In this document: positions 7,401-40,354 of the stretch, piece by piece
Position numbering within the stretch: the first letter of the stretch is position 1
Layout of the letters: every line of letters begins with the position of its first letter
Program-made: the position numbers and the translations under genes
Source of the DNA: Paramacrobiotus metropolitanus
Lineage: Eukaryota; Tardigrada; Eutardigrada; Parachela; Macrobiotidae
Reading direction: 5' to 3'
Assembly: GCF_019649055.1 (NCBI RefSeq)
Contig: NW_026570287.1
Location: 558,001-622,000 of the forward strand
Length of the DNA: 64,000 bases
The notes under the pieces: model-generated
The model's input: only the letters and a program-made list of their open reading frames with translations
Told to the model about the DNA's origin: nothing
Databases searched by the model: none

Positions 7401-7559
7401 GGAGGACTGAGCAGGAATGAAGTTATGCTACACTTTCGGAAAATTCGGATGGTAGTTTGGTAGTTTCAAGTGAATTCAGATTTGCGGTACGAGTACACAA
7501 TACAATCGTAAGTTTCATACTTCTATAAAAGTAAAAGTTTTGTAGAAGTACTGAATACT

Positions 7560-8152
7560 ACGAAACAGGCGGTGACCAAGCGGATGAGCATGGATATCAT
7601 GGTTCAAGTTGCAAGTTCAGTGCCGGACGGAAACCGACCCACGAAAGCCTCAAAGCGGTAATAAAGCGCGCCTTTGCATCGGCCGGAATCGAAACTGGGC
7701 TGGAACCTCCCGGAATCTCCCGTACAGATGGCAAACGACCAGACGGAGTGACAATTACCCCGTGGGAAAGAGGAAAGGCGCTGGCCTGGAATGTAACCTG
7801 GCGCAGCACCATGGCATTGTCATACATCGCAGCCACATCCACTCGAGCCGGAGCGGCAGCAGCGCTAGCCGAGCGGAGCAAGACCGAGAAATACCGCAAC
7901 ATCACCCAGGATTACTGGTTCAAGCCCCTGGCTTTTGAGACCTACGGAACATTCGGACCAGAAACCACCCAGCTACTGAACGTGCTAGGAAAGATGATCC
8001 AGCAGCAGTCAGGCGAACCGCGAGCACTAGAGTTTCTGCGTCAACGGATCAGCATCGAAATACAGCGGGGAAACACAGCATCTACATGGGAACAGCACCA
8101 CCGGCGGCAAATTTAGACGAAATATTCTCTGTCATTCGCCCGCCTGTGTTTG
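7560..8152 (+). mobile_element. Retrotransposon pol C-terminal remnant
   Basis: An open frame of about 185 codons matches the C-terminal region that follows reverse transcriptase in a widespread class of animal retroelements: THESLKAVIKRAFASAG, then DGKRPDGVTITPWERGKAL (W-x-x-T), an AE..K..KY segment, FETYGTFGPE, and FLRQRISIEIQRGN. After QRGN the frame breaks: the expected GTAPPAANLDE continues in another frame up to 8152. No reverse transcriptase core is present upstream, so this is a truncated insertion. A second, shorter copy lies at 40440-40632. Confidence 0.75.
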
Positions 8153-8654
8153 TAGATGTTGTGTAACTCGCTTGTGTTTTAGTTTCTCACGATTTACGTA
8201 AAAAGTGCAAAAAATTTTGTTGCTACTGACGCGAATAAAAAGACGAAATAAAAAAACGAAACAGGCAGTCAGACTGCATTCAGTTACGTACAGTATACAG
8301 TGATACCACTAACCAGTGACACAAAACTGCACTCGTGATACACTCGTTGGCACAATGAGCGGACACCAAGACAACAGGTAACAACCACATGGGTAAGGAA
8401 GCGCAGCTGATTGATTGTTGTTTACAGTACTAGTACTAGTTACACTTTGGATGGTCCAAGGCGTCCACGAATGCTGATCGCGACGTTATTTTACGGTGTC
8501 AGTTTTCATAAATGTTCAGCTGACTGTTTCCTTTCTAATTTATCGTTTGGTTGCTTTTTATTAAAATAACAGAAAGTTATCTGTTTTGGCTTGTTTGTTG
8601 CATACCCTGCAAGTGCTTTACACTGATTCAAGTTGAGGGGCCCTCGCAGCAGTA
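8153..8654. promoter_or_regulatory. Spacer and presumed promoter of the 8655 gene
   Basis: About 500 bp between the retroelement remnant and the first ATG of the N-module/BEN gene. No clear TATA box was identified. A TACTAGTACTAG palindromic stretch sits near 8430. Promoter role is inferred from position only. Confidence 0.35.
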
Positions 8655-11170
8655 ATGTCGACGACACGACACAGTCAGCGCGTTAAGCATCAGCCAAAGC
8701 GTTTCGAGGATCTGCCTGAACCGCAACCATCCACCTCCTCACAGCCGCCCGTCAGCCCCGAGCAGAAGTCCACCGCGAAACGTGGCCGCAAGCGCAAGGA
8801 GCGGTATTCCGTAAGTGAGGATGATTTCACGTTTGAACGTCTTTTGGACTATCCCTCGGATCAGAGTCCCAGCACGGGACCCACCGTACAAACCTGGAAG
8901 AAAGCCGTGGACGAAGTGTCCAAGACGATTATTTTCTATCAGCTGGATCTGCGCTCGGAATTCCCTGGCATTTCGCGCTGCGTTCGGATACGTCCGGAGT
9001 CAGGGGATGCCAATGCGGGATTGCCTGCGACAGGCAAACCCAGTCTAGTGGCGTCGATTTTCATGGGTGACTACGATCTGGGCACGGAGCCCGTTTCGAG
9101 TCTGCTGGATAAGGATAATATTACGACGGAATCCGAGTTTCAGAAAGTGCTGGAATTTATCGGCAGCATGCCTGTTGTTAGAAATAAAACCGGGATAAAA
9201 AGAAGGGATATGGAAGCGGTTCCGGAGCAGCCTGTGCAAACGTGAGTAAAGCCACAAATTCAGTTGTGAAGGACGATTGGCATGCGCGTTACCAAATGAG
9301 TACGAAATATATTGCAGTACAGTATAACTTTTTGCATTCGGTTTGAGAAGCGCAGTATCACTGGTTTCATTTTACAACATAATTTGTTGACAAGGATCAG
9401 AAAAATAATTTACCGCTGTTGAGTGCTTCGGCTGTGCTGTTGCATAAGAATTAAGTAATAAATAATGTGAACCGCATTTAAATATGCAGTATTAAAACGG
9501 TAAACCATCACTAACCTGGTAAGTATCGGATATCGGTATATCAGTGTCATGTTTTTCAATGTCATGTCATTGAATGCAGCTTTTAAAGGCTGTAATTAGT
9601 GATTTTGGTTTATTTTGCAGTGCCGCTCCAGTGGTATACCGCACCATTGTCAGACGATCTGGCAGATCGCAACAGAATCTTTCTAAAGTTTGTGATCCGC
9701 CCGTGGAAGCAGACCTTAATGGATCTACTGTAGTGGTAGAAACGGAAACGCTCGGCGATACCGGTAAGCGCATATGTAATTTTAATATTTGCATTAGTGC
9801 TTTACTGCTTCTGATAAAATTCAATATTTGAGTGCATGTTTGATTGAATTAAATTTAGATTTCGGTTTATTGTTCGATATTGAATAGTTTTGCATTTTAG
9901 AAGAGAAGGCCGGCGAAGAAGCGGTAAATTTCTACTGGAAACATCCCGGCCCTGAGCAGACGCAGTTGCTGGATAACCATGATGTTTATGTCAAAAACTC
10001 CGTTCTGGATGATCTCAAACGCAGTCTGTCTACAGCCAATATTAGCAGTCCGACAGCCTGGAAGAGTTATGCATGGAATTTAACCCTGCACCTACTGGGC
10101 GATGCCGAAGGTGTCGCCAAATTGAAACGCAGCGGAAAGAAATTAATGGTCGATCAGTTATTAGATGCGTTTTGTGTGGAAGCTATCATTGGTAGGAATT
10201 TGCTGCAGTGTTGTTATAACGCAGTAAACTGATTATTTTCTGCCAGATGTTAAACTTTTTTATTGTAGAACATGTACGGAATGTTTGTGGACCCGCCGTC
10301 GACGATTTAGAAGATAGCTACAAGCGCTACTGCAATGGTTTGTTCCAGCAGCTCGGAATGCAGCGGAAGCCGAGAGCGACTCGACCGAACACAAGAGCTA
10401 GATATAGTATAACTATAAATCATTGCTTTTAATAATACTTCAGAACGTTTCTTCATAATCTTCTATCTGAATCAAGCAAGCAGACTAAACTCAATCGATT
10501 CCATGTTTTGCAGTCATTCCTGCTCCTGTAAAAGAAGCATCTACCAACACCCAGCCCTCGCCTGCGGATGTACTCATTCCACAAGAGTTGGAGATTTTGG
10601 GCACTTTGCAGGTGAATACAACGCTACCTGTGTGCGCAGACATTGCGTTTGTTTGACTGACGGTTGGCATTGCCGCGGTACTATACCGAGGCTGTAGTCG
10701 TAATTTGAAAATGCTTGAGCTGGCATTTTTGATTACTTATGTATCACTAATTCACTATCACCGTACGTAAATCGTTTGTAGCTGATTGTATTTCGTTTGT
10801 AGCTGATTGTATTTTTCCTTATGTCTTGCAGGGCAAAGCTTTATGCCCAATCAAAGAGTGCTCTGCTCGGAAGTACGCTGTGGCCGATTTAAATTTCCTG
10901 AGACGCCATTTCCAGCAAGTCCACGCACATGCCTACCCGTCGCCTTCGTTTACTTTACTTTGCCCGGTGGCCGAATGCGCAACAACGTTCGGGACATCTA
11001 TGGAAGCCTTCCGTGAACACTTGGCAAATGACCACCTTCGACCATCAAGCAATGGCAATACCACTGTCAGTGTCTCTGACAACGCATTTCCTTCCGGAAT
11101 TGTGGAGCAGCCACATGACCAAGTGGCCGAAAGTGATACCACGGTGGAGACTGTAGCCATTGAGGCGTAG
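8655..11170 (+). CDS. N-module protein with BEN-like domain and two C2H2 zinc fingers
   Basis: Exons 8655-9241, 9621-9763, 9901-10191, 10269-10406, 10514-10611, 10832-11170; every junction keeps phase. Exon 1 starts with a basic, Pro/Ser-rich segment, then the N-module: TWKKAVDEVSKTIIFYQLDL, P.ISRCVRIR. Exons 3-4 encode a predicted helical region resembling a BEN domain (VLDDLKRSL, AWKSYAWNLTLHLLG, LMVDQLLDAF). The last exon has two fingers, CPIKEC-x15-H-x4-H and CPVAEC with HLANDH. The product is probably a nuclear DNA-binding regulator. The first exon is 587 nt with a phase-2 donor, as in three paralogues of this window. Gene model good; BEN assignment is by pattern only. The donor after 10406 (GTATAA) is the weakest call. 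Confidence 0.8.
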
Positions 11171-12765: not shown

Positions 12766-13245
12766 ATTGGTTGTATTCTCCGAGCCTGCGGTACTGCTGT
12801 TCGAAAAATACACAAAAATATTTTACAACCCTAAAAAACAGCAGTTATTACAGAACGAAAACGGTCATGGAAAGGATGAAGTAAAAAAACGCTGCAAAAA
12901 TAACAAAAATGCAAAATACAAAAATCATCAAAACGAGCCTTTTCGTTTATTCCATGAGACATGAGTGTCGGCATGGACAACCGCACGCGGGTTGGAAGTT
13001 GCGCTATGCTTTCCTAGTGACTGGCCTCGCAATGGCTCGCATATGCAGTCTGCAGAACTTCTTATTTTTGGTTTTCGTTTTTTGCGCATTAATCCGTGAT
13101 CGCTTTTGTAAACTTTGTCCGCGACTGTTTGCTGATTTTTAAGTACAGAGCAAGCTCCAGTTAAATTCGAAGTTATTTCTCCTTTGTTGCTCCGAATAAG
13201 ATATAAGTCATATAAGGTCGACAACAAAACTTTTCTAGTATAAAA
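12766..13245. promoter_or_regulatory. Presumed bidirectional promoter, MED4 / 13246 gene
   Basis: 480-bp spacer between two divergent start codons. AT-rich with lysine-codon-like A tracts; no specific element recognised. Role inferred from arrangement. Confidence 0.4.
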
Positions 13246-14460
13246 ATGCGACGTCCAAAACCCCGATCGCGTGCTCCAAAGCGAAAAAACCCCGAAGAAG
13301 CGACGGCCAGTGCCAACGGCTCAACAGCCGCTGACTCCGCACAGATGTCTGTAGAATCTCCAGAATCTCCGGAATCCGCGCAACCTGCCCAGTCGTCTAC
13401 GAAGACCACTCCAGCACGAGTGTCGCCTCGTGTTACGCGTTCGGGCAAGAAGGGTCCTCAGCCGCGCGCACCCCTTACCAAGAAATCGGCAGCTCCCAAG
13501 AAAGCCAAAACAGAGCCAATCACATTTCAGGAGTTGGCTGATCGGTTGGAGCCCCATCCGCAGCCCGCGACGAACTGGCGCAAATTCATCGATCGCAATG
13601 AAAAGATGCTCATGTTCTATGATCTTGATCTGAAGGCGCCCATTCCCAAGATCTCACGCAGTGTGCAGGTGCGCTGCACGGCGGTTAAAACCGGCAAGAA
13701 GAAGACAGAATACAAACTGGTGCCCACTGTGCATATTGACGGGAAGATCGTGTCCCCGGCCAGCATAAAGAGTGTAATAAAAGGGGACTATGTTGAGACG
13801 ATTGACGATCTTACAAAACTGGTGAACCACTTTGGCGTGCTGGAAAATTTGCACAATATGAAGGATGGCGAGGATGGTAGCACAAATTTGGAAGATGGAA
13901 AAGGTTAAAAAAGCCTGTTGTGACAGTACAGTTAATGATTTATCAATGTCCAGCAGTTTAGTTAGTTGTGATTTTTTATCCTTTAGGCTTTACGGGCTGT
14001 AGAATCCCCATGTAGCAGAGTAGAGTACATTCTGTATTCATTGCTGGATTTTAATGTACTTAAACATAATTATCGACCACGGTTAATTTGTTGTGCATTA
14101 ATAATTTTACCCTTAATGCTTAAATTAGTTGAAGTGGAATCTTTACTGAAGAGCACCCCAAGGCCAGGTTGAGAATTGCAGTTTACTTTGTTTTTGCAAA
14201 AGTTTTGCTGGTGTGTAATCTGCATGTAATTTGTAAATGTTGGTAAATGTATTGTGATAGGCAGTTAACAACTGCTTGTTGTAACTGATGAAAATAAGCG
14301 TTTGAACAAAAAATACTGAACCTGTTTTGCTGTAACTGAGTGTACTCACTCATTTCACTGTTTAGAAGCGTCTTCTGCGGACTCGCTCTCTTCTGCTGTT
14401 GCCTCATCCTCCTCCGCCGATCCACATGCCGCTCTTTCAACCGATGTGATGAAAGAGTAG
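13246..14460 (+). CDS. N-module protein, short form
   Basis: Exon 1 at 13246-13903 and exon 2 at 14366-14460 join in phase 1. The N-terminus is basic and Ser/Pro-rich (RRPKPRSRAPKRK, later RSGKKGPQ), likely a nuclear localisation and DNA-contact tail. The N-module follows: NWRKFIDRNEKMLMFYDLDL, P.ISRSVQVR, LVPTVHIDG, then a DDLTKLVNHFGVL helix. The second exon adds a Ser/Ala-rich tail ending DVMKE. It is the most diverged copy of the family and has no recognisable second domain. If intron 1 is not spliced, the frame still stops two codons later. Function unknown; probably nuclear. Confidence 0.75.
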
Positions 14461-19149: not shown

Positions 19150-21600
19150 CTAATTAACCTTCTTTCTTTTACGACATATTTGACGATACTTATCCATCCA
19201 GTTTGCAAACTTATGACCAAAGAAAGATTGCAAGGAAGGCGGTAAACTCGGTAAATTCTTAACAATACCAGCTAATGCAGATGAATCCATTTCCCCTTCC
19301 GGAATCATTTCACGCACCAAATCACTGGCTTTCTCTGAAAAAACCAGAACAAAATTTTGTCAATGTCGTAGCGATAAAGCAATCAAACGGCGCATACTCT
19401 CGACAACCCGAAAGAAATCCGATCCTAAGACGCTCTCGTAAAAATTATACTGTCGCTTTCCATCACTCTCTTCCTTTCGCACATCGTACACCGTGGCCAA
19501 ACGTATTAATCCGGGGGTACCGCCCAATAATCGCGACATCAAGTACCAAATATACTGTTCGGGTGTAAGCGTATGCTTCAGAAATTTGGAATCCAATAAA
19601 TGGTATCGGTTGTCGACGAAAATGTTTGGGAAGCTTTCATCCAGGATCATCATGTCCGGACCATCCATCTGAAAACACCAAGGAGACGTGGTATCCTCGA
19701 GGCGACAGGCGGATTTGAGTACCCGTGGAGGGTTTTTTAAAGCGAAGTGACGTTCAAATGTCCGGGAACCCACATAGTAATCTGCAAGTAAAGAGAGTAA
19801 GAACGGCAGTAATGGAGAATAACAGAATTAATAAAAAAGCGTTTGAAATGATTGAAATGATCACTAGGAATTACCTTCGCTTGTGCTATCGGGTACAAAA
19901 CCATCTAAACACAAATCTTTGAATTTTTCTTTGCTGACTGATTCCGTGGTACCATTCCGAACTGTATGGGCAGTGGAAGGTGCAATTTCGTGGCCGTCTC
20001 CTATAATAAAACCATAAAACTGTACAATAGCGATCAACTGCTGTTCCGGTGTTTAAAGTTATTAACTGTAATTCAAAATACAAGTTCTGACGTAAATTAT
20101 TTGTACGAAAATAATACGTTAACAGTTATTCAAATTAAAGCAAACATAAGTAAACAACATTGGGGCTACTTAACACTAATCATTATGACACACGTTTTGT
20201 CAAGCAAAAATATACTGTCTCGATAGCAGTCTGCAGATACGTAATGTACGCGTACCTTCCCCCACCTCCACTTCGTGGCTGGCGTCACTCTTTTCTCTCA
20301 ATCCTAAATTTAAATCACGACAGTTTGATCAGAAGTCTGGCATAAATCTCAGCATATCTCAATAAAAAAGAAAAATATCAATACATTATTATCGCACTAT
20401 AGCATTCATAACTTACCGGTTGATAGTTTTGGTGTTTTTCGCCTTCGACGGCTTCGAGGAGCCTCTTTTAATGGCAAAGGCGGTAATGCTCCAGTAAAGA
20501 GATCCCCGAGATCAATGGCACTGCGATGAGTTGGTTGGTCATCATTCGCAGTTTCTGTTTCGTCACTGCAAATGTGCAAGAATAAGAAAAACCAGATAAT
20601 CACTTTTTTCGTTTTTGACTTTTAACAGTCGTACACAGCGTAAGCTGAAGAATTAAATACTATTAATTATATATGCTATACGCTGAAGAACTTACTTTTA
20701 TATTAAGAAATAATTAATGAGTGTAATCACTGTAATGCGTACGTATTTATTTCTGTGCACTATGCTCTAGTAGCAGTCGTGCGGACATATATCCAGTAAT
20801 TTCCACTCTTCAAGCATTTACCAAACGAAGAACGTACATCAAAGATGATGCGTACGAGTATGTAGTCAAATTATCCGCATCAAATGCAGTTTATTATTAT
20901 TATTATTTTTTAATTTATTTTTTATCATCACTCGTAATCGCAGCCATATTATCCGCACCAAATGTAATTTTTATAATTTTGTTATTCATTCAACTTTTCT
21001 TGTTACCTACGTAGTCATATTGTCCGCATCAAACGCAGTTTTCTCCGAATCATCCACGAAATGCCTCGCTCGTTTCGGCGCTGCTTCCACTATTTCATCA
21101 TCTGGTAAATCCGCTGCATCTGGTAACGAAGCAATCTGGATGTTCTCCGCGGTTTCTGGAGAAAAGCAAACAGATTCGCTTGTCTGCCCGAGGATAACTT
21201 CCGAACCCAGCAACACCCCGACATACTCAAGGAGCTTCATCAGATCGTCTTCATCGGCCAGATACGGTCGTCCGATGACGGTCGTCATGAAGGATAAACT
21301 CAACGGTGTGCTGCCGATGTACACAGACGGTACGAGGTGGCCCTTGTCTTCCGCACAACGAATGCGGATACTCTTGCTCATATGCGGGACGCAGGCGCGC
21401 AGATCAACCTGGTAAAAGACAACAGTGTCCGCGGAGTGGTCAATCGCTTTCCGCCAGGATGACGGGCCTAACTCGGGATCGACGCCAACAATCCTGATCA
21501 GATCCTTGTACGTCATACAAGATGGAGCAGTGAGTCTCCTCGAATAATCCAGGTTACCATTCAGCGGTCTTAAAGCCGATCTTCTGCGATTTTCCGCCAT
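19150..21600 (-). CDS. N-module protein with BEN-like C-terminal domain
   Basis: Six exons on the minus strand: 21011-21600, 20417-20565, 20256-20303, 19875-20000, 19389-19781, 19150-19334; phases 2,1,1,1,1. Start ATG at 21600 gives MAENRRRSALRP, parallel to the 29141 paralogue. N-module: LGPSSWRKAIDHSADTVVFY, P.MSKSIRIR, then GRPYLADEDDLMKLLEYVGV. After acidic and Arg-rich linkers (RSRRRRKTPK), the exon at 19389-19781 carries a BEN-like segment (FVDNRYHLLDSKFLKHTLTP, WYLMSRLLGG, YESVLGSDFFRVV). The last exon ends in a basic tail, RQICRKRKKVN. Likely a nuclear DNA-binding protein. The donor at 19388 (GTTTGA) is weak but is the one that keeps frame. Confidence 0.75.
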
Positions 21601-22059
21601 CGCGGGTTTACTCACGTCAAAATATACTTTTCGCAGTCTTGTGCGTACGAGATTCGTACAGAAGTTTAACTGTTTGCACAATGCGAATAATGTATTCGAA
21701 GTTTAAAATTTCCACTCTCGTTTGAGTGTGCAACAGCAAACTGCAAAATTCAAGAGGCGGAAAAGCACAACACTGGCAGCGAAGCTGAACTGCGAGAATG
21801 TACGTAACCGTCGGCCCTGAAGCGTGTGTTGCTGCCACAGAACATTCACAAAAACGCCCGAAAGGATTTTTTGGTAGCGGCTTCCAGTTCCCATAAAAAA
21901 TGCTGTCTGCTTCAAGGGAATGTTTTCTGATAAAAAACAATTAGAAAAATTCTTTCTGGTGCCACATTTTCCGTTGTGTTCCGCTATTATTGAATTTCAA
22001 TCTGTTCACGTAATCGACAGAGTTAAGTTTGAAAAAAAGAATTGTTATGTAATCGATCG
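21601..22059. other. Upstream flank of the 21600 gene
   Basis: Non-coding spacer leading to the inverted-repeat element. In-frame extension of the 21600 gene to 21681 is possible only with a non-ATG start. Presumed promoter region. Confidence 0.4.
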
Positions 22060-26944: not shown

Positions 26945-29141
26945 TTACTCGCTGCTCTTGTTGGAATTTCCTTCATTTGCATCGTCACCTGCTGTGGGCG
27001 ACTCGCTTGAACTTGCTCCTTCTACTTGACCAGTAGATGCCCCTGTAAAACAACCAAAATAGATAACAAAAACATCAGACAGCGAAATCCTGTCGAAGCC
27101 GACAAATTCTTAACAATATAAAAAAAACTTACGAGTTTCAGGTGCTTTCGTTTTCGCCGGCAGCTGTCTGCGACCATACACAGAATCAAACAGATCAAAG
27201 TACGGCCATGTCGATCGAGATCTGCCGAGATCATGATGAGTTCTTTTCTCGGTCTTGTATTTATGGAAAGAATTTTCAAATCGTTTGGCGACATTAGCTG
27301 CCGTATGGGGCATCAGCGGCCAGTATTCCTTCATCGATTCGACAATTTCGTCCCAGAGTGGCTTCTTCATTTTGGTGTCTAGAAACTGATCTTCCATGTC
27401 CAAGCGTTGTGTAATAATAAATCTACGACATTACGACTTTGTTGCACAAGATTTGTCAACCCAGTAAACTTTCACAATAAAATTTAAAAACCAACAGAAG
27501 TACACAAGGAAATTCCACAGCTCACAAGTTTACAGACCTGTGCTGTTCATCGGTAAAAGGACGCTTTTTAGATTTTGAGCCGCTTTTGCCAATACCTCCT
27601 TCCTGTCCCTCATCCCATTCACTATCGTCCGCATCGGCTATGCAACGCACAATAAATTGGCAAATAACAATCTAATGCACACTGCACAGACAGCACAGTA
27701 TTCCAAAATACAATATTATTATACAGTAAAGCGCAGCCGAGCCTAGTCGCAATCATCTGCAATACTGCGCAGCCGCAGAATTTTTAGCAAGCCTTACGTT
27801 TTTCTATAACTTCAACATCTTCATCGCTCACAGTTTCTTGAGATTTAGGCTTCTCTGTATGTAGGGAATACTCTTCCGACGCTCCTATCAAATATACGTA
27901 TACACAAATGACAATTTTAAGCAACTGTAGCAGCATCAGTAAATCTGAACGACTGATTTTTGAAGTAACACTTGATTTGCCATAATGCCTCTAACCTTCG
28001 CTGCCAGGTTCGCCTTGGCTCACTGTTTTTGTTGGAGCGGTATTATTGGTCACATAAAAAATCTGAGGCCCTACAATGCACTCCATTAATACAAGTATTC
28101 GAAAACTGACTAGTGACTACAATCTGCCGTAAAAAAATGGACCACAAAATACCGTTTGCGGTGGATGTGCTGGGTACATTCGCGCCAAAATTAGTTGGCG
28201 TTAAAATCAGGAGATTCGTCAAATCTGTGGCTTCACGGCCACCAGTTGGGTGTCGTCCAGACGTCGTATCCGTACGCAGACCAACCTTACTGGGGTTACT
28301 ACAATGCAAAAAAAAAGCAATAATCTTGAACTCACTTGTCAGCACAGCAAACTGGCGTGGACAAATTAATCGAAGGTGTACGAATATTCCATGTTTACTA
28401 CACACAGCCACACAATTAGCACATAAAAGTGATAAAATTGTCAGACGCGTGACTTCCGAAGTCATGTCGCTGCGAAAGTTTTGATGCACTTTATGCGTAA
28501 CCTTACCCTCGAAGCAATTAATATTGTATGCACAATAAAAAAAATTCACACCTGTTGACTGACTGTCGGGATGCAGGTTTCGGCGCACCGTGTGCAGCAC
28601 GCTTGACGCGTTTCGCTCGGGGACTAGCCTCATCGGCCAGATGAGAAGGATAAGGCACAGAATTCTCCATATCATCCGCTACCGGTTCAGAAAGATAACA
28701 GTCAGATTCCTGGACAGTCGCCGCAGCTTCCTCGGTGGTCTGCAGCATGCCTGCATGCTCCAACAGCTTCATCAGATCGTCTTCGTCAGCCAGATACGAT
28801 CGTCCAATAACCGTTTTCACGTATGATAAACCGAGCACCGCGCTACCAATGTACACGGATGGCAGCAACTGCTCGATGCCGTTCTCCATACCACGCAAGA
28901 TGCGAATACTTTTGCACATATAGGGTACTGCTGCGCGGATGTCCACCTGGTAGAACACCACGGTATCCGCGGAATGATCGATGGCTTTGCGCCAGGACGA
29001 CGGTCCCAAATCGGGATCCACACCGACGACGCGGATCAATTCTTTGTACGAGATCGGTGGCAGAGAATTCCCCCATGATAACTGGTTTCTACTATCATTC
29101 ATGGGCTTGAGCAGCGATATCCTTCTCTGAAAACTCGTCAT
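26945..29141 (-). CDS. N-module protein with Myb/SANT-like (trihelix) domain
   Basis: Seven minus-strand exons: 28552-29141, 28153-28298, 27996-28070, 27798-27884, 27538-27637, 27133-27422, 26945-27042; every phase matches. N-module: LGPSSWRKAIDHSADTVVFY, VPYMCKSIRI, GRSYLADEDDLMKLLEHAGM. Acidic linker exons follow. Exons 5-6 encode a Myb/SANT-like DNA-binding domain: RPFTDEQHRFIITQRLDMED, KKPLWDEIVESMKEYW, NVAKRFENSFHKYKTEK, WPYFDLFDSVYG. The last exon is a Ser-rich acidic tail. Exon 1 is 590 nt, the same length as in the 21600 gene. Probably a nuclear regulator. Two linker exons (75 and 87 nt) are phase 1-1 and could be skipped without frame loss. Confidence 0.82.
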
Positions 29142-29941
29142 TCTAGAGTGCGATTGGCACTTGCAGGCATACGGAACGGGGTAATGGCAAGCAATCTCGA
29201 GGAGATTTGTTGTGCTACTTGCAGCTAACTTGCAGTTGTAACAAGCTGCACCAATGAGTAGGACTTTAATAATGCGAAGCGTTTGACGTACGCCGTTCTA
29301 TCCGGAGAAACCAACCTGAAAACGTCAAGTGATAAAAAACTGAAAGATCAGAACAGAACTTCGAACTACTGCAAAGTACAAACGTAAAAAACTGAAAACT
29401 ATTACTACTCGTATAAACACAAAAAGGCAAACACAAAAACGGTATCAACAATGCATCATAATTCATGCAATGGCAGAACACATGTTCCAACGGTATGTCA
29501 TATGGAAAGTATATCTATTGGAAAGCATATCCAGTTAGAACCGCCACCAGACGGCGGTGTCTAAGGGGTTAAATCGTACAGCACGTTACGGAAACAGAAA
29601 GAAAAACGGAACAGAAAGTTAAAAGTGAAAACAAAAGTGAAAACAAATATTTTCTTACTTTCTACGATTCTGTAGAACTCTAGTTTATCCTTCCTAACAG
29701 ATTCATGAGGTTTGAAATTTCAGGAAGTATATTACCGTATGGGAAAGGGTAATGCCATGATGCCATCTATCTGCTTAGTGCCTGCCGTGACATTTTGATT
29801 CATCCGTGTGATCAATGAGATTTCAGAACTGTCGGTCCTAAATTGCGTCAGTGTGGATGCTTTCTGGAGGATTCCCCTTTCATCCATTTAATTCTTCTTG
29901 TATCATAGCACTGATCAGTTATCTATACCGCTGACGCCAGT
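29142..29941. promoter_or_regulatory. Divergent spacer between 29141 gene and SFSWAP
   Basis: About 800 bp between two head-to-head starts; presumably carries both promoters. No specific sites recognised beyond one TACTCGTA octamer at about 29407. Confidence 0.4.
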
Positions 29942-33380: not shown

Positions 33381-33601
33381 TTATTCACCATTTAAACAAC
33401 ATTCCGGTATACTTGTCGGATATTCCCGAAACCTATCCACACAGTTCCAGCAGAAGCGCATGAAATGCTTTACACACACAGGCAGCGAACAACTTTGGCA
33501 CTGGTGACTGGTTTTTCGATCCATCTTGTTCGGGCACATTTTGCATCGCTTTTGTTTCCCTAATTTCCATGACAGCGCTTTTGGTCTCTCCTCCTCACCC
33601 A
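33381..33601 (-). CDS. Terminal exon T5: zinc ribbon type B
   Basis: 73 codons including stop, entered after TCTAACAG in phase 1. Encodes KRCKMCPNKMDRKTSHQCQS then CVKHFMRFCWNC, matching the T3 pattern. It is the most distal terminal exon, about 4.6 kb from the last constant exon. Confidence 0.7.
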
Positions 33602-36600
33602 CTGTTAGAAAAAGGGTGCTTTATTAATCGAAAATATTAGTTCAAGTATAGAGATGAAGAAAGTATAAAGACTGCCTTATACAGGCTTATACAGATAAAG
33701 CAACAGGACGCCTCATAAATATTGTACGAGTACATTTCGCACTAACGACGAAAACGAAAGTTAACGCTGTACCGAGCGAGAACTTAATCAGTATAAAGCA
33801 GTTACAGTAAAACCTCTCTATAAAAAACAGGCACGGTTCCATCAGTTTCGTATGTTATACCGGGGTGTATTTTATAAAGGGAAACTTCCTCCAGTGGCGC
33901 TGTGATAATTTGGGGTTGGAGGCGCCGCAATACATGTATTTTATTAATGCAACATTAAGGCGGTAGCGAGAATCTGTAGTACATTACAAATTTGTATTGC
34001 ATACGAGTACATTAAAAAATACAAACTTCGTTTTGAGTTCATCATAAAGTATGATTAGTACTTGGAAACTGGCAAAAAATATTCTATGAGATATACTTTT
34101 GAATAATTTACAGTAATTACCATTTACACAAACAACGTTAATGTTGCTCCACATTAGTTGAGGATGTTAAGATAACGAGAGGTTTTACCGTACTTCATAT
34201 TCATATAAAAACGTAAAGAACGTTACGGACAAACTATGTAATGTGAATATATATTTTCACACCAAGCAAACATTAGCACAATGTAAACAAAGTTTTACCA
34301 GTAGCCGAGGCAGTCTTTCCATTTAATGGTACAGCGAGAATCCATAATTTTTGTCTACGAGAACCGGTACGGTACAGCGAGAACCCATCCAAATCTACAG
34401 AAAAATTTAATATATTCTTTAGTTTCACGAAATCTGACAAATTCAGAATAAATAATGACTATTTATTCCTGTTTTTGTTTCGGATGGTTATTGCGCTAGC
34501 ATCCGTTCAGTTGTGCTTTTAATTCAGACCAACTAGCGATACCTCTCGGTACCCAATCCCGTTCGAATTATACCGAGAAAGCTAAGAACTGCCGATGCAG
34601 TATATCAATCAGAAAGCAAATTCTTTCATCAGATTTTTGTAGCCGTTCAGGTCAAGCTACAGTAGAATGATATGAATATTAATCTGAAACCAACGAGCTT
34701 ACCAATACGCACGACAATCTCATTTTCGACTAGCTCGTTTCCGGCTAGAAACATTTTAGGCTACCAACAGTACATTACAACCAAGGCAGATTTTAAAGAC
34801 CTATCTGTCAGCATACTCGTAGTGGTAATCAAACTGACCACCGGTCAGCAATACAATAATGCCATTCAGTGCTTTCACTGCGAAAAACCCTTCATCTAAA
34901 CCGCAAATCTAAAGAAAAATGCTGAACACAAATTTCACATAAGTGCAAAACACTACTCTTCGCGTATTTTAACCGGAATCATGGAAGTCGGGAAAGCATC
35001 TGAGATGCAGGCGGACTTTGCATTTGATGCACCGGTTCCGTGCGGATGAACTGCCGCACTCCTTGCATCGGCCAATAGTACTCGGTTCGGGAAAGTGGTT
35101 AATCCCGTCAAAGCGAACACTGTTGCATACGAAAGTCGATAGTCGTGTGGAAACTAAGAAGATCAGGTTCAATTTAATTTTTAATAACATATTTACTGAA
35201 TGCCAAGTATTTGTACATAAGTCCACTTGGTCGAGCAAAACACAAATGTATTTTCAAGCAAAATAAGTATTCCGGTTTCTGAAAACGGTAGTCCTTCCGT
35301 GTTAATTATGTATAAAGTGAGTACTACGTAAGTGAAAGTGATACTGCGGTAAAAAGACTGTCCCGTTTTTTTAGCAACTATAAATGGAACGGTTTCCTAT
35401 CATTTGCAGTAGCATCTACCATATGTATTTATACGATGAATTAGTTGTGCTTCGTAGGAGTGTATTCGGTGGCAAACTTACAACAAGATCGATCTACAGA
35501 AATTGATCATGATTAACCCGCGGAAGAAGATTGCTGCGCAGAACTAGTTTTGAAACAAAAATACGAGGCCCAGGCGGGAATAATTTCCAGTGTTCGTAAG
35601 AATCGTAACAGTAAGAAAAGAGTATACAGTGTCAAAAACACAGCAATTACAGTAACATCAACATAAGCCCGCTTTTTCCATGCATTGCAGGCATACCGCA
35701 CCATAATGCTCTCCACAAACATGATTTTTACATGAAACGCACAATACCGTCGTTCGACGATTTATCTTGCTAGGACAGAAAAAGCAAGATTTCCGCTTAT
35801 CGGCTTTACACGTCTTGAATAGATTTGTCTCTGCCTCCACGTCTGTTATATTGTGAGCATTAGGCGGTTTTCTTCCTTTAAACACGCGGATTTTGCTTTC
35901 TACGGTCGGCGAACGTGGAGCATGCGTAGTGTATTCTTGAGAAACAGAAACCTCGCTGTTGACTGCCTTACTGGATACTGCAAAAATCAAAGATGATGGC
36001 AACAGCCATAATTTCTCCATTCTTTCTCCTATTTTTTTGACTACTTATAGAATTCATTTGACTCGAAGAACTAACCAAACTAACAAGAATTCACTTAACG
36101 GACTGACATTACAAATTTTGATGAATTTTTAGCTGGAAACTCGCAGAAAAAGCAGCACCGACATTGCAATACCGCTCATGTGAAACAAGTTGCACACTAA
36201 ACATTTTGATTGGAGCGCTTGGAACCTTCAAGCGAAAAGTGCGGTGAATAATATACTATACAGCCACTTCAAAATTAAGAAATGCTAAGGCTACCATGAT
36301 GGTCAGCGACATGGTCAAATAGTAATAAAATATAACATACAAATAACAAATACTGTGCGACAATCGAGTTGAAAATACATATTATCACAATTTCAGCTAC
36401 TAGGTTCCATCAAAGGCGGCTCAGGACGGCAGTGGTACAATGGAAAACAGGCCCGATGCAAGCGCATATTACATTTACTGCACTTCTGTAGCGCGGAACT
36501 GCGCCCACAATGCCTGCAACGTCCTCGACTGCAGTGCTCTGGGATATGATTGATACTATCATATCGCAAGCTTAAATTAACACCTGCCGCTGTTTTTGCC

Positions 36601-39600
36601 AACTTGTTGACTCCCAAAACATTATCTGCAAACAGATAAAGTAATAACCAACCTGCACCAAATAAACTCACACCCGCTCACTAAATAAACCTAGCTAATT
36701 TTTGTGTTAAAACTGCGCACAGTTCACCCATAATTAAATCAATTATGTATTAGTACAGAATATCTCCAGTCAACTCATCAAACACAAATAACAACCGAAA
36801 GCAACATCGTTCGATGTTGAGCAGATTTCAGACAGAATCAGCCTATGAAATCACATCACAGACCTGCTCAGAATGACTGTTTTGGATGAAAATGAATGCT
36901 CTCCACAAAAATGCTCTCCCCAAACATGATTTTACATGAGACGTACAAACAGGTCGTTCTACAATTTATCCTGCATGAACACAGGAAAAACAAAAGCTCC
37001 GCTAATCGGCTTCATAAATAGCTGAGCTGTTGATTAGCCTTGAGAAACAGAAACCTAGCTGTTGACTGCTTCTCTGAATACTGCTCACGTCAATATCAAG
37101 CTGATGGTAACAGCCATAATTATGCCATTCCAACCACGAAATTTATTCAACTCAAAAAGTTACTTACTCCGACTAATAAGAATCCGGTCAAAAAGATTTT
37201 ATGTATACTGTAAACCGGTTTAACAATACAAATTATAAATTTGGAGCTGGAAACTGACAGAGAAACCAACACCAACATTACAATGCCGCTCATGTCTCAT
37301 GGGAACAACCTGCACGCTAAAAATTTTAAACTGTAACTTAAAAATGCAAACAGCACTCACTGTACAGCCACTTAAAAATCCAATTTCAATTAGAAGTTTC
37401 CACCAGCGGCGACTCGGGACGGCAGTGGTACAATGGAAAGCAGGACCGATGTAAGCGTACCTTGCATATACTGCACTTTTGTCGCGCGGAGCTGCGGCGA
37501 CAATACTTGCAGCATCCTCGACTGCATTGCTCAGGAAAGTGAACACTATCATATCGTGAACTCAAACGAGAAATTTTCGCTGTTTTTGCCGATTTGTCGA
37601 CTTCAGACGAATGATCTGCAAACAGATCATATACCACCCAACCTGCTTCTGACTTAGGTGTACACTAAAAAAATTGAATAATTTTCGAAGAAAGCTGTAA
37701 CAATCACCATGTACCAGGTCCCTTATGTATTAGTACAGAAAACCGTTCAGTCAACTGAGTCAACATGACCAACACACATAACAAGTCAACAACCGACCGA
37801 AACCAACGTTTCGGTGTCGAGCAGAACTCAAATTATGAAATCAAATCACAGACCCGCTCAGAATAACTGCTAAGCTGCCTTCGATAAAAATAATTACGAG
37901 AAAGTTAGCTCAAGCTTTTTTCTATCCACAAAACACAAAAAGCGCCTTCACTATCACTAACGCTGAATGCAAAGCAACAAATTCATCATTTTCCGAAACA
38001 TGTCCCAATATTTTTAAATTTAATAAAATCTATTAAATTTTAGAAAACGTAAAATCTTCTAGGTTTTTAGTACCTTATCGTGCATAACTTCGGTTTCAAA
38101 CTATGAGCATGAAGTAAACCGAAAGCGAGAAACAGTCGAACTACTGCTACAGCAATTGGCAAAAGGGCACATTTTCAAAAAATCGTAAACGAACCACCGA
38201 AGATCAATTTTCAACCCACCTTTAGCACCTCGTTTTTTCGCGCTTTTTAGTCTAGTGCTTTTCCGCGTGGTTCCATGTCCGTCAACGTCATCGGGATCAT
38301 CCGAATCTAAAACATATGATAAGCATGTACCGAAGAAAAACTGCTCACAGTCAGCTAATTCCACCACATCAATACACACAGTCTAAATTAATATCAATTA
38401 CCTTCATCAGGCGGTTGCTCGTAATCGGAATCAGCCGTTCCATCACCATCGACGCCGTCGAAACCGAGAGCCGGTTCCTCGAGTTCTATAAATAAAAATA
38501 CATTGTAAAAACCCTCATGCTAAAAGCGCATAAACTAATGTATTCGTTAAAACTGCAAAACAGGCGGACAGTCGGACCTTCATTTTTGGCCATGCAAGGG
38601 GAGATTCCGGAAGCCGTGACCATCATAGGCTCCATTTCAAAATGCCTCGAAGGCAAGGATGTCGGTAGCGTAAACATAGAAGTGAGATCCATAACGGGGT
38701 GGCTCGACGTACAGATGACCGTTGCATTGACGGCAGATGTGGCATCCGTGGAAGGCAGTATATCACTGAAACATCAAAATTGTTCTTCCAAGACAGAAAT
38801 TTAATTTGTTCAATTTTTCCATTAGAACACCATTCAGAAACCGACCAGTACGGGGAAACAACAATATATCCACAACAAACAAAGTAACTTGAAAAAATGC
38901 ACGTTTGCGTGCAGTGGCAAACCGGAGTGCATCAACTTGTGTGAGTCTATGAGTGGGAGATATGATTTTATTTTTAAATAAATGATTAATGAGGCATAAA
39001 AAATTGCCTAATTATAAATTACAGATTACTTTAAATTATGTATACCGTAAATCAGGTGACAAAAAATAAATAGCCCTAAATTAAATGATAAAATAATTCA
39101 AATTTTCGATAATGCAAAATAACAGAAGAACGTGAACCGAACATTCTAAACTATTAACTGTTCAAGTTGTACCTAATCTTCTCCGCCTCTGCAGAAATGC
39201 CTTCGTCCGCAGGCAAATTTGTCTGCATACACGTTTCCCCATAATCTGCTTCGCACTTATTTCCATCCACCTTTCCATTTCCTACATCATCTCCATCCGC
39301 TTTGGCCTCATCCGTCCCGTCCTGAAAGACCCCTGCATGATCAAGCAGCTTCATGAGATCATCGCCATCCGCCAGATACTGTCGCCCGATGATGGTTTCT
39401 ACAAATGAGGAGCTCACAGGATTCTCGTCAACGTACACTGTCGGAATCAACAAGGAACCGCTTTGGCCGTTACACACGCAATCCTCGGCGCGGATGCGAA
39501 TGCTTTTGCTCAACTTTGGAAAACCTCCCCGGAGATCAAGTTGGTAGAAGAGGATAATCTCCGCGGAATGATCGATGGCTTTGCGCCATGAGGTCGGTGG

Positions 39601-39771
39601 AACCGATGAATCGATTCCGATGGATTCCACTAGCTTTTTGTATGACACACCGGGAACTGCAGTGTTTCGTAGTGATTTACGGACGCCACAGGCAGGCCCT
39701 ACACCATCAGGGCTGAAGAAAACGGAGTTTTTCTTCGGCCGTCCACGCCCGCGTTTGAATGGAAGAGACAT
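33381..39771 (-). CDS. N-module gene with five alternative 3'-terminal zinc-ribbon exons
   Basis: Constant part: exons 39173-39771, 38578-38765, 38402-38485, 38220-38306. ATG at 39771 gives MSLPFKRGRGRPKKN, an AT-hook-like basic start, then the N-module (PPTSWRKAIDHSAEIILFYQ, FPKLSKSIRIR, GRQYLADGDDLMKLLDHAGV), Ser/Thr-rich and acidic linkers, and a basic stretch RKSTRLKSAKKRG. The last constant donor (GTGGGT after 38220) leaves phase 1. Downstream lie five exons at 37386-37615, 36393-36625, 35658-35977, 34969-35153 and 33381-33601. Each is preceded by a good acceptor, opens in phase 1 and ends in a stop. None has an N-terminal partner of its own. I infer mutually exclusive last exons that change the DNA-binding ribbon; separate decayed tandem genes are the alternative. 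Donor at 38577 (GTCCGA) is weak. Confidence 0.75.
34969..35153 (-). CDS. Terminal exon T4: zinc ribbon type A
   Basis: 61 codons including stop, entered after CTTCTTAG in phase 1. Encodes VRFDGINHFPEPSTIGRC with the same C-x2-C-x8-C-x2-C-x5-C-x4-H spacing (CKECGSSSARNRCIKCKVRL, RCFPDFH). More diverged from T1 and T2 than these are from each other. Confidence 0.7.
35658..35977 (-). CDS. Terminal exon T3: zinc ribbon type B
   Basis: 106 codons including stop, entered after TTTTTGCAG in phase 1. A Ser/Thr-rich lead is followed by CFFCPSKINRRTTVLCVSC, CGEHYGAVCLQC: C-x2-C-x11-C-x2-C-x4-C-x2-H-x5-C-x2-C. This is the cysteine-rich domain pattern at the C-terminus of insect-type piggyBac transposases. 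An ATG lies in the upstream intron but its frame is explained by chance extension. Confidence 0.72.
36393..36625 (-). CDS. Terminal exon T2: zinc ribbon type A
   Basis: 77 codons including stop, entered after TTTGCAG in phase 1. Encodes LRYDSINHIPEHCSRGRC with C-x2-C-x8-C-x2-C-x5-C-x4-H (GRCRHCGRSSALQKCSKCNM, RACFPLYH). Near-paralogue of T1. Flanking intron sequence of T1 and T2 is also alike, so the duplication was larger than the exon. Confidence 0.72.
36895..37120 (-). pseudogene. Decayed copy of a type-B zinc-ribbon exon
   Basis: Aligns with exon T3 (35658-35977) over short shared blocks such as GCTCTCC..AAACATGATTTT and GAAACAGAAACCT.GCTGTTGACTGC, but with indels and lost cysteines. It sits between T1 and T2, where a type-B exon would be expected from the A-B order of the other pairs. 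Confidence 0.7.
37386..37615 (-). CDS. Terminal exon T1: zinc ribbon type A
   Basis: 76 codons including stop, entered after TTTGCAG. Encodes RYDSVHFPEQCSRG then C-x2-C-x8-C-x2-C-x5-C-x4-H (CKYCRRSSARQKCSICKVRLHRSCFPLYH). This spacing matches the C-terminal zinc ribbon of piggyBac-type transposase-derived proteins. No DDE catalytic domain is encoded nearby. Closest to T2. Confidence 0.72.
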
Positions 39772-39810: not shown

Positions 39811-40281
39811 CGATCAACGCATCGAGATTCAAGTCTCCAAAATGCAGATGCTGTCACCTGTCAGCTTAATTTACCAAACCGATGGATGACAGGGCTTAAC
39901 GTTCTTTTCTTTGCCCAGAAAACGAGGATCGAAACAAAACTCAAACTACGACTTTCGGATAACTGGAAAAGAATTTGCAGGAAAACTGAATGAGTTTGGC
40001 ACGATTTGTGAAAACAAAAACACCACTGCAGTTTGCCGCAAACTTTTTTGCGCGGCAGGGTAAGCGCCAGCTATCGCCCCACCGCGCTTACCATCGACCC
40101 GCTACGCTTACTTCCTTATTACTTTTCTGGCGAGAAACAATAATTATAGAAATGGAAATGCCGATGCACTGGGCACTGGGCAGCAGAATAATGCGAATAC
40201 GTAAACTAAAATTATAAAAACGGTTCATCTATAAAATAGATTTTTGACAGTCAGATTACTCAATTTTCAAACAAAAAAAAG
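39811..40281. other. Upstream flank of the 39771 gene
   Basis: Presumed promoter region of the N-module/zinc-ribbon gene; nothing specific recognised. A T-run on the minus strand at about 40270-40281 follows the tRNA gene and could serve as its Pol III terminator. Confidence 0.4.
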
Positions 40282-40354
40282 TAGCAGATCGTGGTTTCGA
40301 TCCACGGACCTCTGAGTTATGAGCCCAGCGCGCTAACCTCTGCGCCAATCTGCT
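40282..40354 (-). tRNA. Initiator tRNA-Met (CAT)
   Basis: 73-nt cloverleaf on the minus strand. Acceptor stem AGCAGAT/ATCTGCT plus discriminator A; D stem GCGC/GCGC; anticodon loop CTCATAA with CAT; T stem CGTGG/CCACG. The A1-U72 pair and T loop ATCGAAA (A54, A60) mark it as the initiator rather than the elongator. The anticodon stem has G30.U40 in place of one of the usual three G-C pairs. Followed on its strand by a run of Ts typical of Pol III termination. No intron. Confidence 0.93.

Follow-up and report, generated by a model that had tools for sequence, protein, structure and literature searches.

A tardigrade gene ending in an array of piggyBac-derived cysteine-rich domains as candidate alternative last exons

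The Drosophila genes lola and mod(mdg4) combine a constant 5' part, encoding a BTB domain, with several phase-matched alternative 3' exons, each of which encodes a zinc module of the C2H2 or FLYWCH type. Transposases have also been captured into host transcription factors, where a host domain and a transposase domain are united by splicing. In the primate CSB-PGBD3 fusion (PMC2268245), host 5' exons of ERCC6 are spliced to an alternative 3' terminal exon which derives from a piggyBac element in intron 5; the reading frame is kept and the exon supplies its own stop. The same source describes a single element with a whole transposase ORF and TTAA-flanked ends, for which the transcripts are proven (PMC2268245). 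The cysteine-rich domain (CRD) of piggyBac transposases may, on the account given with PiggyMac, bind a DNA repeat of the transposon ends (5'-TGCGT-3') or histone H3 (PMC8086355).

A minus-strand gene of Paramacrobiotus metropolitanus, located in a 64-kb stretch of DNA that was analysed as a whole (the window), belongs to a host family defined by a common N-module and probably has captured several piggyBac CRDs, arrayed at its 3' end as candidate alternative last exons (Table 1). As in CSB-PGBD3, an in-frame acceptor of matching phase precedes piggyBac-derived codons and an own stop, which holds for 5/5 exons in the genome sequence. Unlike CSB-PGBD3, the locus comprises five intact CRD-only exons and a dead one, draws on two transposon families, includes a tandem exon duplication and is without the catalytic domain, with one subterminal relic only. 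While the joining of host exons to a piggyBac 3' terminal exon is already known from CSB-PGBD3, the novelty lies in the arraying of several of them. In gene anatomy, the constant 5' exons followed by several phase-matched candidate 3' exons with zinc modules resemble lola and mod(mdg4), but an N-module without a Pfam match replaces BTB, and piggyBac CRDs replace C2H2 or FLYWCH. The layout is thereby lola-like and the origin CSB-PGBD3-like. The known host-transposase fusions differ in that here several captured ends of one gene would occur as alternatives, with the CRD alone retained and in a tardigrade. In their Cys/His pattern and homology the modules are like the solved piggyBac CRDs (5lme, 6x67), unlike which they are separated from the catalytic domain and set behind a host N-module.

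Table 1. Features of the locus and related features in the window (positions in the window)
Feature	Position	Strand	Remarks
Constant exon 1	39173..39771	-	ATG at 39771; AT-hook-like GRGRPKK; N-module
Constant exon 2	38578..38765	-	Frame open, ends GT/AG
Constant exon 3	38402..38485	-	Acidic
Constant exon 4	38220..38306	-	Basic towards its end; donor 38219 (phase 1)
Tandem unit 1 (A1 + B')	36904..37869	-	
Last exon A1	37386..37615	-	Type-A piggyBac CRD
B', decayed type-B CRD exon	36904..37074 (about)	-	Unit-1 counterpart of B1
Tandem unit 2 (A2 + B1)	35699..36879	-	68-78 % identity to unit 1, in three blocks
Last exon A2	36393..36625	-	Type-A piggyBac CRD; A1 and A2 are tandem duplicates
Last exon B1	35658..35977	-	Type-B piggyBac CRD; transposase homology from acceptor or just inside
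Last exon A3	34969..35153	-	Type-A piggyBac CRD; weak acceptor, rank 78/357 AG
Relic of type-A piggyBac subterminal repeat	34821..34859	-	Behind A3 stop; matches L027 and L029 at 82 % (39 bp)
Last exon B2	33381..33601	-	Type-B piggyBac CRD; most diverged
N-module paralogue	28518..29297	-	Myb/SANT-like ORF 27110-27427 downstream, same strand
N-module paralogue	21007..21702	-	
N-module paralogue, diverged	13216..13908	+	
N-module paralogue, diverged	8637..9245	+	Downstream C2H2-like ORF 10751-11167, Pfam score below cut-off

When joined, the four constant exons give 958 nt that end in phase 1 and contain no stop, with an AG preceding exons 2 to 4 and a GT following each exon; the joining thus confirmed the phase-1 end at 38220 given in a preliminary description of this DNA. 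On a hand-made splice score, with weights not trained on P. metropolitanus, the exon-4 donor takes rank 1 of 496 GT, followed by that of exon 3 at rank 2, while exons 1 and 2 have donors of rank 66 and 69. Apart from an AT_hook match below the cut-off in constant exon 1 (E 0.018), Pfam searches with the focal exon 1 and two paralogous N-modules gave no match to the N-module, nor any to BTB, and the best match of the N-module among PDB sequences had an E of 0.65. The predicted structure of the N-module (pLDDT 84, pTM 0.76) aligned best with chain P of 8ovw, presumably CENP-P/Ctf19 (RWD / UBC-like), at Z 8.2 and rmsd 3.5 over 100 residues with 6 % identity, a Z which possibly reflects just a common arrangement. 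Other kinetochore and E2 structures gave Z values of 3.5-6, while a Foldseek search with the model returned nothing at E < 0.001 and viral structures included no N-module match at E < 0.001.

The N-module occurs in about 29 copies in the genome, rather than in the focal gene alone. The proposed likeness of this gene to lola and mod(mdg4) is partly supported: a common N-module with phase-matched candidate last exons is backed by the anatomy, the constraint on A1 and A2 and the phase-1 pattern of a paralogue. In the paralogue concerned (one of the C17 paralogues), the phase-1 exon pattern is kept with the same phase-1 joint, but the terminal module is another one; exon 3 of both genes contains ALGFD and starts in the same phase. 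The terminal module of the C17 paralogues looked BEN-like by eye, but a three-piece query gave no Pfam match and the model of three supposed relatives from the window was poor (pLDDT 58, pTM 0.40), and the module is assigned to no family. Four further N-modules of the window, along with B' and the tandem duplication, had been overlooked in the preliminary description.

Each of the five last exons follows an AG, opens in phase 1, ends in a stop and encodes a Cys/His zinc module, as had been proposed, and 5/5 join in frame. The fusions of exons 1 to 4 to A1, A2, B1, A3 and B2 comprise 395, 396, 425, 380 and 392 aa, respectively, in frame and with a single terminal stop. The choice of an in-phase AG for these exons was partly made in the preliminary description itself. 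When all six frames of the 64 kb were scanned for the pattern C..C / C..C / [CH], seven rows resulted, the five last exons and two others which overlap within one low-complexity frame at 56.5-56.6 kb; since the scan gave little besides the five last exons, the cluster of zinc modules is above chance. On the same splice score, the acceptors of A2, B1, A1, B2 and A3 rank 2, 3, 18, 23 and 78 among 357 AG. An AATAAA or ATTAAA within 400 nt 3' of the stop was found for A1 only (1/5 last exons; 380 nt scanned for B2).

An in-frame ATG lies 5' of the B1 acceptor, and the ORF from 35658 to 36044 would start MEKLWLLP. This open frame with its upstream ATG would fit CRD exons that form part of one or more other same-strand transcripts with their own start, rather than of the N-module gene. 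Such an arrangement seems very improbable, considering that the B1 acceptor ranks third of 357, that the transposase homology of B1 begins at or just inside this acceptor, that the unit-1 copy is stopped soon after the ATG matching that of B1, and that no other partner was found for the exon-4 phase-1 donor, the terminal module of the C17 paralogues having no convincing match behind the gene. Points against the reading as alternative last exons are the weak A3 acceptor, the low donor ranks of exons 1 and 2, the single near hexamer, the dead B' and the ATG of B1.

All five zinc modules were identified by homology as the C-terminal CRDs of piggyBac-superfamily transposases belonging to two families (A and B). 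The transposase ORFs L014, L018, L020 and L021 matched the five exons in tblastn with E values from 7e-20 to 7e-5 (best in-frame match per reported pair). Pfam DDE_Tnp_1_7 (PF13843) was matched for L021 (E 6.4e-71), L020 (7.9e-65), L018 (5.2e-33) and L014 (4.1e-8), with matches that come from these CRD-bearing ORFs or their neighbours. The type-B profile matched the solved CRDs 6x67 (E 1.9e-6) and 5lme (E 5.4e-6), while the type-A profile retrieved no piggyBac chain from the PDB sequences, but two chance zinc proteins only. Non-piggyBac zinc families (PHD, C1, DZR, RING-like, zf-Tnp_2 and others) were rejected, as the Pfam scores of the exons were all below the cut-off and A1 gave none. The different finger type of the preliminary description is thus identified as piggyBac CRDs of two families.

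No match to the DDE catalytic domain was found in the array by tblastn, and 0/38 scored PF13843 matches in the genome are located at this gene. Among the nine type-B CRD matches in the genome, B1 and B2 are the two that lack a DDE match within 3 kb, which the other seven possess. Elsewhere in the genome, another twelve CRD matches of type A are not accompanied by a scored DDE, 8/12 being free of an internal stop, although some are short; because open CRDs without DDE occur elsewhere, such a CRD alone is not proof of use. A survey of the transposases for a built-in acceptor 5' of the CRD found acceptor-like sites in 4/7 reported loci (L016 gave no row), but at no distance and phase that the families share, and the idea was set aside.

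On the evidence of their alignment, A1 with B' and A2 with B1 are the products of a tandem duplication. The region of B' is dead, being stopped in all three frames over 36851-37100, while A1 and A2, the only pair tested for constraint, are both open, with dN 0.228, dS 0.621 and dN/dS 0.37 (Fisher p 0.0011, from rounded counts). In 20,000 runs of a neutral simulation with substitutions only, both copies were open with seven ligands in five (p 0.24) or three (p 0.30) runs. The A1 and A2 exons are 76 % identical over the whole and 82 % over the core, with 70 % in the upstream stretch; the excess in the exons is modest, since an identity of 76 % to its copy is also reached by the gap-rich stretch that separates A1 from B'. 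As A1 and A2 are duplicates, the five phase matches do not represent five independent events. These data bear on the possibility that a normal N-module gene has one real last exon (e.g. A2 or B1) in a transposon graveyard, with the other CRDs as remnants and their in-phase acceptors coincidental or decaying. The death of B', the weakness of the A3 acceptor, the near poly(A) hexamer at one exon only and the CRD remnants without DDE elsewhere in the genome agree with this, but it appears unlikely given that A1 and A2 are both open and constrained after duplication, that 5/6 modules are intact and in phase, and that both type-B CRDs without DDE in the genome are at this gene.

Within the preferred reading of captured CRDs as candidate alternative last exons, the modules alternate between the two families (A1-(B')-A2-B1-A3-B2). 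The array may have grown solely by repeated duplication of one captured A-B pair, with no separate captures of A3 and B2, to which slightly less than an even chance can be given. The A-B-A-B-A-B order, the one unit duplication that is clear in the DNA and the clustering of A3 with A1 and A2 (support 0.79) suggest such growth; however, B2 is 40 % identical to B1 and 43-44 % to the transposases, B1 being no closer, A3-B2 has no DNA homology to the other units outside the CRDs, and the relic behind A3 matches an L027-type repeat. The relic starts 122 bp past the A3 stop, and the corresponding repeat lies 102-125 bp past the stop in L027-L030; over 200 sites of the type-A subterminal repeat are present in the genome. 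A second candidate behind A2 (36322-36285) scored 24 against a best background of 23 and is not claimed. Around the CRD exons, no transposon terminal ends were recognised, and one subterminal relic lies behind A3.

Under the preferred reading, piggyBac elements would have inserted behind the gene in the sense orientation, the catalytic part would have been lost and acceptors would have arisen immediately 5' of the codons for the CRD, the last exons thus deriving from the 3' ends of piggyBac-superfamily transposons, namely CRD codons and stop. A transcript would be spliced from the strong 38219 donor to one of the five acceptors, and each isoform would carry the common N-module, with its predicted RWD-like fold and, as a guess, a role in protein interaction, together with a different CRD. 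The latter may contact chromatin or DNA; the simplest targets would be histone tails or, in the transposon families that donated the CRDs, their ends and relics. It is conceivable, if rather doubtful, that the locus is a renewable targeting cassette, to which waves of piggyBac donate end-recognition domains as new last exons. An isoform for the ends of each transposon family would then bring the partners of the N-module there, so that the transposons are silenced or nearby genes rewired. If true, such a cassette would parallel a family of zinc-finger repressors specific to transposons, based on splicing and made of the transposons' own parts.

Transcriptome data exist for P. metropolitanus, according to PMC11191345. 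A lipocalin search directed at the SAHS proteins of tardigrades yielded three matches, the best of which was an ordinary fatty-acid-binding protein. With a candidate motif, its relic next to the gene and more than 200 copies in the genome, the question of whether transposase domains, once captured, continue to read the ends of transposons becomes testable. The suggested origin of the array is that transposons of one kind inserted behind a phase-1 donor, followed by exon duplication. If the reading is true, one gene unites the capture of transposase parts by splicing with arrays of interchangeable C-termini, and one common front half could be directed to different places in the genome by five interchangeable ends.

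On the minus strand, the open reading frame of the focal gene starts with an ATG at position 39771 and extends over four exons, the last of which has its phase-1 donor at 38219, and the joining of these exons bears out the constant region proposed in the preliminary description. The five candidate last exons, A1, A2, B1, A3 and B2, could likewise be joined in frame, with each (5/5) preceded by an AG, entered in phase 1 and closed by a stop codon, while the Cys/His ribbons claimed for all five were recovered by a six-frame motif scan of the whole window, in which the remaining two rows overlap in a single low-complexity frame. The predicted isoforms comprise 395 (A1), 396 (A2), 425 (B1), 380 (A3) and 392 (B2) residues. 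Using a hand-made splice score that was not trained on this species, the donors of exons 1 to 4 ranked 66, 69, 2 and 1 among 496 GT dinucleotides, and the acceptors of A2, B1, A1, B2 and A3 ranked 2, 3, 18, 23 and 78 among 357 AG dinucleotides. Poly(A) sites had been proposed for inspection after each stop codon; a hexamer (AATAAA or ATTAAA) occurs within 400 nt behind A1 only, with none behind A2, B1, A3 or B2 (380 nt scanned for the latter). The open frame of B1 (35658-36044, minus strand) reaches an in-frame ATG upstream of the acceptor, and the peptide beginning there (MEKLWLLPSSLIFAV...) resembles a signal peptide by eye, probably by chance. A tRNA-Met gene (anticodon CAT; 40281-40354, minus strand) lies approximately 0.5 kb before the ATG of the focal gene.

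Candidate last exons, transposon relic and N-module paralogues in the window
Feature	Position	Strand	Remark
A1	37386-37615	-	type A ribbon
A2	36393-36625	-	type A ribbon
B1	35658-35977	-	type B ribbon
A3	34969-35153	-	type A ribbon
B2	33381-33601	-	type B ribbon
Diverged TGACCAGTGGTCANNNTGTTGACCAC copy behind A3	34859-34821	-	82% over 39 bp to the type-A elements L027 and L029
N-module copy	8637-9245	+	paralogue besides focal gene
N-module copy	13216-13908	+	paralogue besides focal gene
N-module copy	21007-21702	-	paralogue besides focal gene
N-module copy	28518-29297	-	paralogue besides focal gene

The genome searched comprises 169,799,020 bases in 533 contigs; a genome of 170 Mbp, with an N50 of 1.0 M and a longest scaffold of 4.48 M in the current assembly, is reported for P. 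metropolitanus (PMC11191345). The A2 ribbon yielded at least 27 match rows (two overlapping on contig C149) and the B1 ribbon at least nine, several of which sit at the ends of transposase ORFs. The Pfam domain DDE_Tnp_1_7 matches the loci L021 (E 6.4e-71), L020 (E 7.9e-65; CRD in the next ORF), L018 (two ORFs, E 5.2e-33 and 1.3e-7) and L014 (E 4.1e-8), and the type-B profile matches solved piggyBac cysteine-rich domains (6x67, E 1.9e-6; 5lme, E 5.4e-6). Since several transposase ORFs end in such ribbons and the type-B profile matches these structures, both ribbon kinds are, as judged by sequence, C-terminal cysteine-rich domains (CRDs) of piggyBac-superfamily transposases, belonging to two families. 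The CRDs of A1 and A2 share 73% identity, with 71% between A2 and L014, while A3 is 56-60% identical to A1, A2, L014 and L018 and 40-47% identical to L027-L030. Among the type-B CRDs, identities are 67% (B1-L020), 40% (B1-B2) and 44% (B2-L042). Support in the CRD tree, from which L016 and L017 were left out, is modest, and the A3-B2 pair may represent an older copy of the same A+B pair or separate captures.

When transposase ORFs were used as tblastn queries, CRD matches but no catalytic domain were found in the array, the other rows being few and short, weak, on the wrong strand or off frame; in B1, the transposase homology begins at the acceptor or just inside it. None of the 38 DDE matches scored in the genome lies at the focal gene. 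A DDE match occurs within 3 kb of 12/27 type-A rows and 7/9 type-B rows, these counts being lower bounds as the search scores the best candidates only; B1 and B2 make up the two type-B rows lacking such a match, and the fifteen type-A rows lacking it consist of the three array exons and twelve others, eight of which have no internal stop, though several are partial. A type-A CRD without a scored DDE match and with the subterminal repeat behind it was observed at L031 (contig C57), L032 (C15) and other loci. These are possibly short elements carrying a CRD and a 3' end, and such elements are plausible donors for exon capture.

This subterminal repeat, TGACCAGTGGTCANNNTGTTGACCAC, is common to the type-A elements of the L027 group, behind the CRD stop, and with up to three mismatches occurs at 233 genomic sites, compared with two for the reversed pattern. 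In the aligned elements carrying it, conservation stops at CTGGAGG in 4/4, with a TTAA starting at most one base away, as expected for piggyBac. As these 233 places far exceed the type-A CRD rows (at least 27), many non-autonomous or decayed type-A copies are suggested. The diverged copy behind A3 begins 122 bp past the stop, compared with 102-125 bp in L027-L030, and thus supports, as a sequence relic, the arrival of at least A3 with a sense-oriented piggyBac element. The search for the other ends of the founding insertions found none. A second relic behind A2 was rejected, being no better than background. The type-B elements L020 and L021 share a palindrome, TGGGTCGACCCA, roughly 130-150 bp past the CRD stop, perhaps the type-B equivalent of TGACCAGTGGTCANNNTGTTGACCAC; none like it was seen by eye behind B1 or B2.

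The two ribbon types alternate along the array. An A+B unit is tandemly duplicated, as three pairs of blocks align with 70% (37869-37381 and 36879-36388), 68% (37327-37039 and 36207-35936) and 78% identity (37012-36904 and 35806-35699). B', the B copy of the first unit, is interrupted by stops in each of the three frames. Both A1 and A2 are intact, with a dN of 0.228, a dS of 0.621 and a ratio of 0.37 (Fisher p 0.0011 on rounded counts of 21/49 vs 35/179). Between units, identity is 76% in the exon and 82% in its ribbon core; it is 70% in the upstream flank, 76% in the A1-B' spacer, where gaps are numerous, and 80% in B' itself (107 columns). Exon and flank thus differ only modestly, and the case for constraint is drawn mostly from the codon pattern. 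In a neutral simulation of A1/A2 without indels (20,000 runs), two open copies with seven ligands were obtained in 5 (p 0.24) and 3 (p 0.30). The same modest gap in identity tempers our confidence in the best reading, that captured piggyBac CRDs form an array of alternative last exons of a host gene, which we consider probable rather than assured.

For the splicing, binding and function of the isoforms, we infer that the donor at 38219 would be joined to one of the five acceptors, giving a product in which a linker, acidic at first and then basic, connects the N-module (the shared N-terminal domain in constant exon 1) to a single CRD. Binding of piggyBac CRDs to 5'-TGCGT-3' at transposon ends has been described, as has, for the PiggyMac CRD, histone H3 binding with undetectable DNA binding (PMC8086355). 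Given these activities, the isoforms would direct a common N-module to differing targets on DNA or chromatin, most simply the termini and remnants of the donor transposon families. As read here, the array would resemble CSB-PGBD3, in which a host gene has a piggyBac element as an alternative 3' terminal exon; its authors suggested that acting as a 3' terminal exon trap is inherent to piggyBac (PMC2268245). Literature searches, largely confined to papers outside subscription, returned, among the papers listed, no report of a CRD array as alternative last exons or of piggyBac capture in tardigrades; one tardigrade paper mentions PiggyBac a single time, in a superfamily list (PMC11071193). Capture of a piggyBac 3' terminal exon is already known, and the array of CRD ends would be the new part.

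The N-module matched 30 rows in the genome, or about 29 copies, with eight on the contig of the focal gene (C67), fourteen on C17 and seven elsewhere. The C17 copies form a 75 kb cluster (C17:1123-1198 kb; 15 rows, one copy being split in two), within which genome searches with the A2 and B1 ribbons placed no CRD rows. By eye, exon 3 of one C17 paralogue has the same start phase as that of the focal gene, with ALGFD in both, and in this paralogue the last linker exon, ending in phase 1, is followed by the phase-1 acceptor of another C-terminal module, for which no convincing match was found behind the focal gene. On these like phases, the focal gene seems to have retained the phase-1 joint of its family, with CRDs now behind it. 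A model of the N-module from five window sequences (pLDDT 84, pTM 0.76) aligned best with 8ovw chain P (Z 8.2, rmsd 3.5, 100 residues, 6% identity), which we take to be the CENP-P/Ctf19 subunit, followed by other kinetochore proteins and E2 enzymes; no Foldseek E-value fell below 0.001. The model hints at a protein-interaction domain. Downstream of N-modules other than the focal one, on the same strand, are a GATA ORF (L048; PF00320, E 1.2e-14), a Myb/SANT ORF (window 27110-27427; PF13837, E 2e-8) and C2H2 ORFs above (L051) or just under (L047 and window 10751-11167) the Pfam cut-off. Two ORFs, at window 7535-8116 (+) and the end of L051, share the stretch ..KRPDGVT.TPW.RG.., which resembles part of a retrotransposon. 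The N-module family may be a lineage-specific transcription-factor family, the DNA-binding ORFs being same-strand neighbours of several copies; should such neighbours be joined to it, the N-module would serve as a partner for DNA-binding domains in general.
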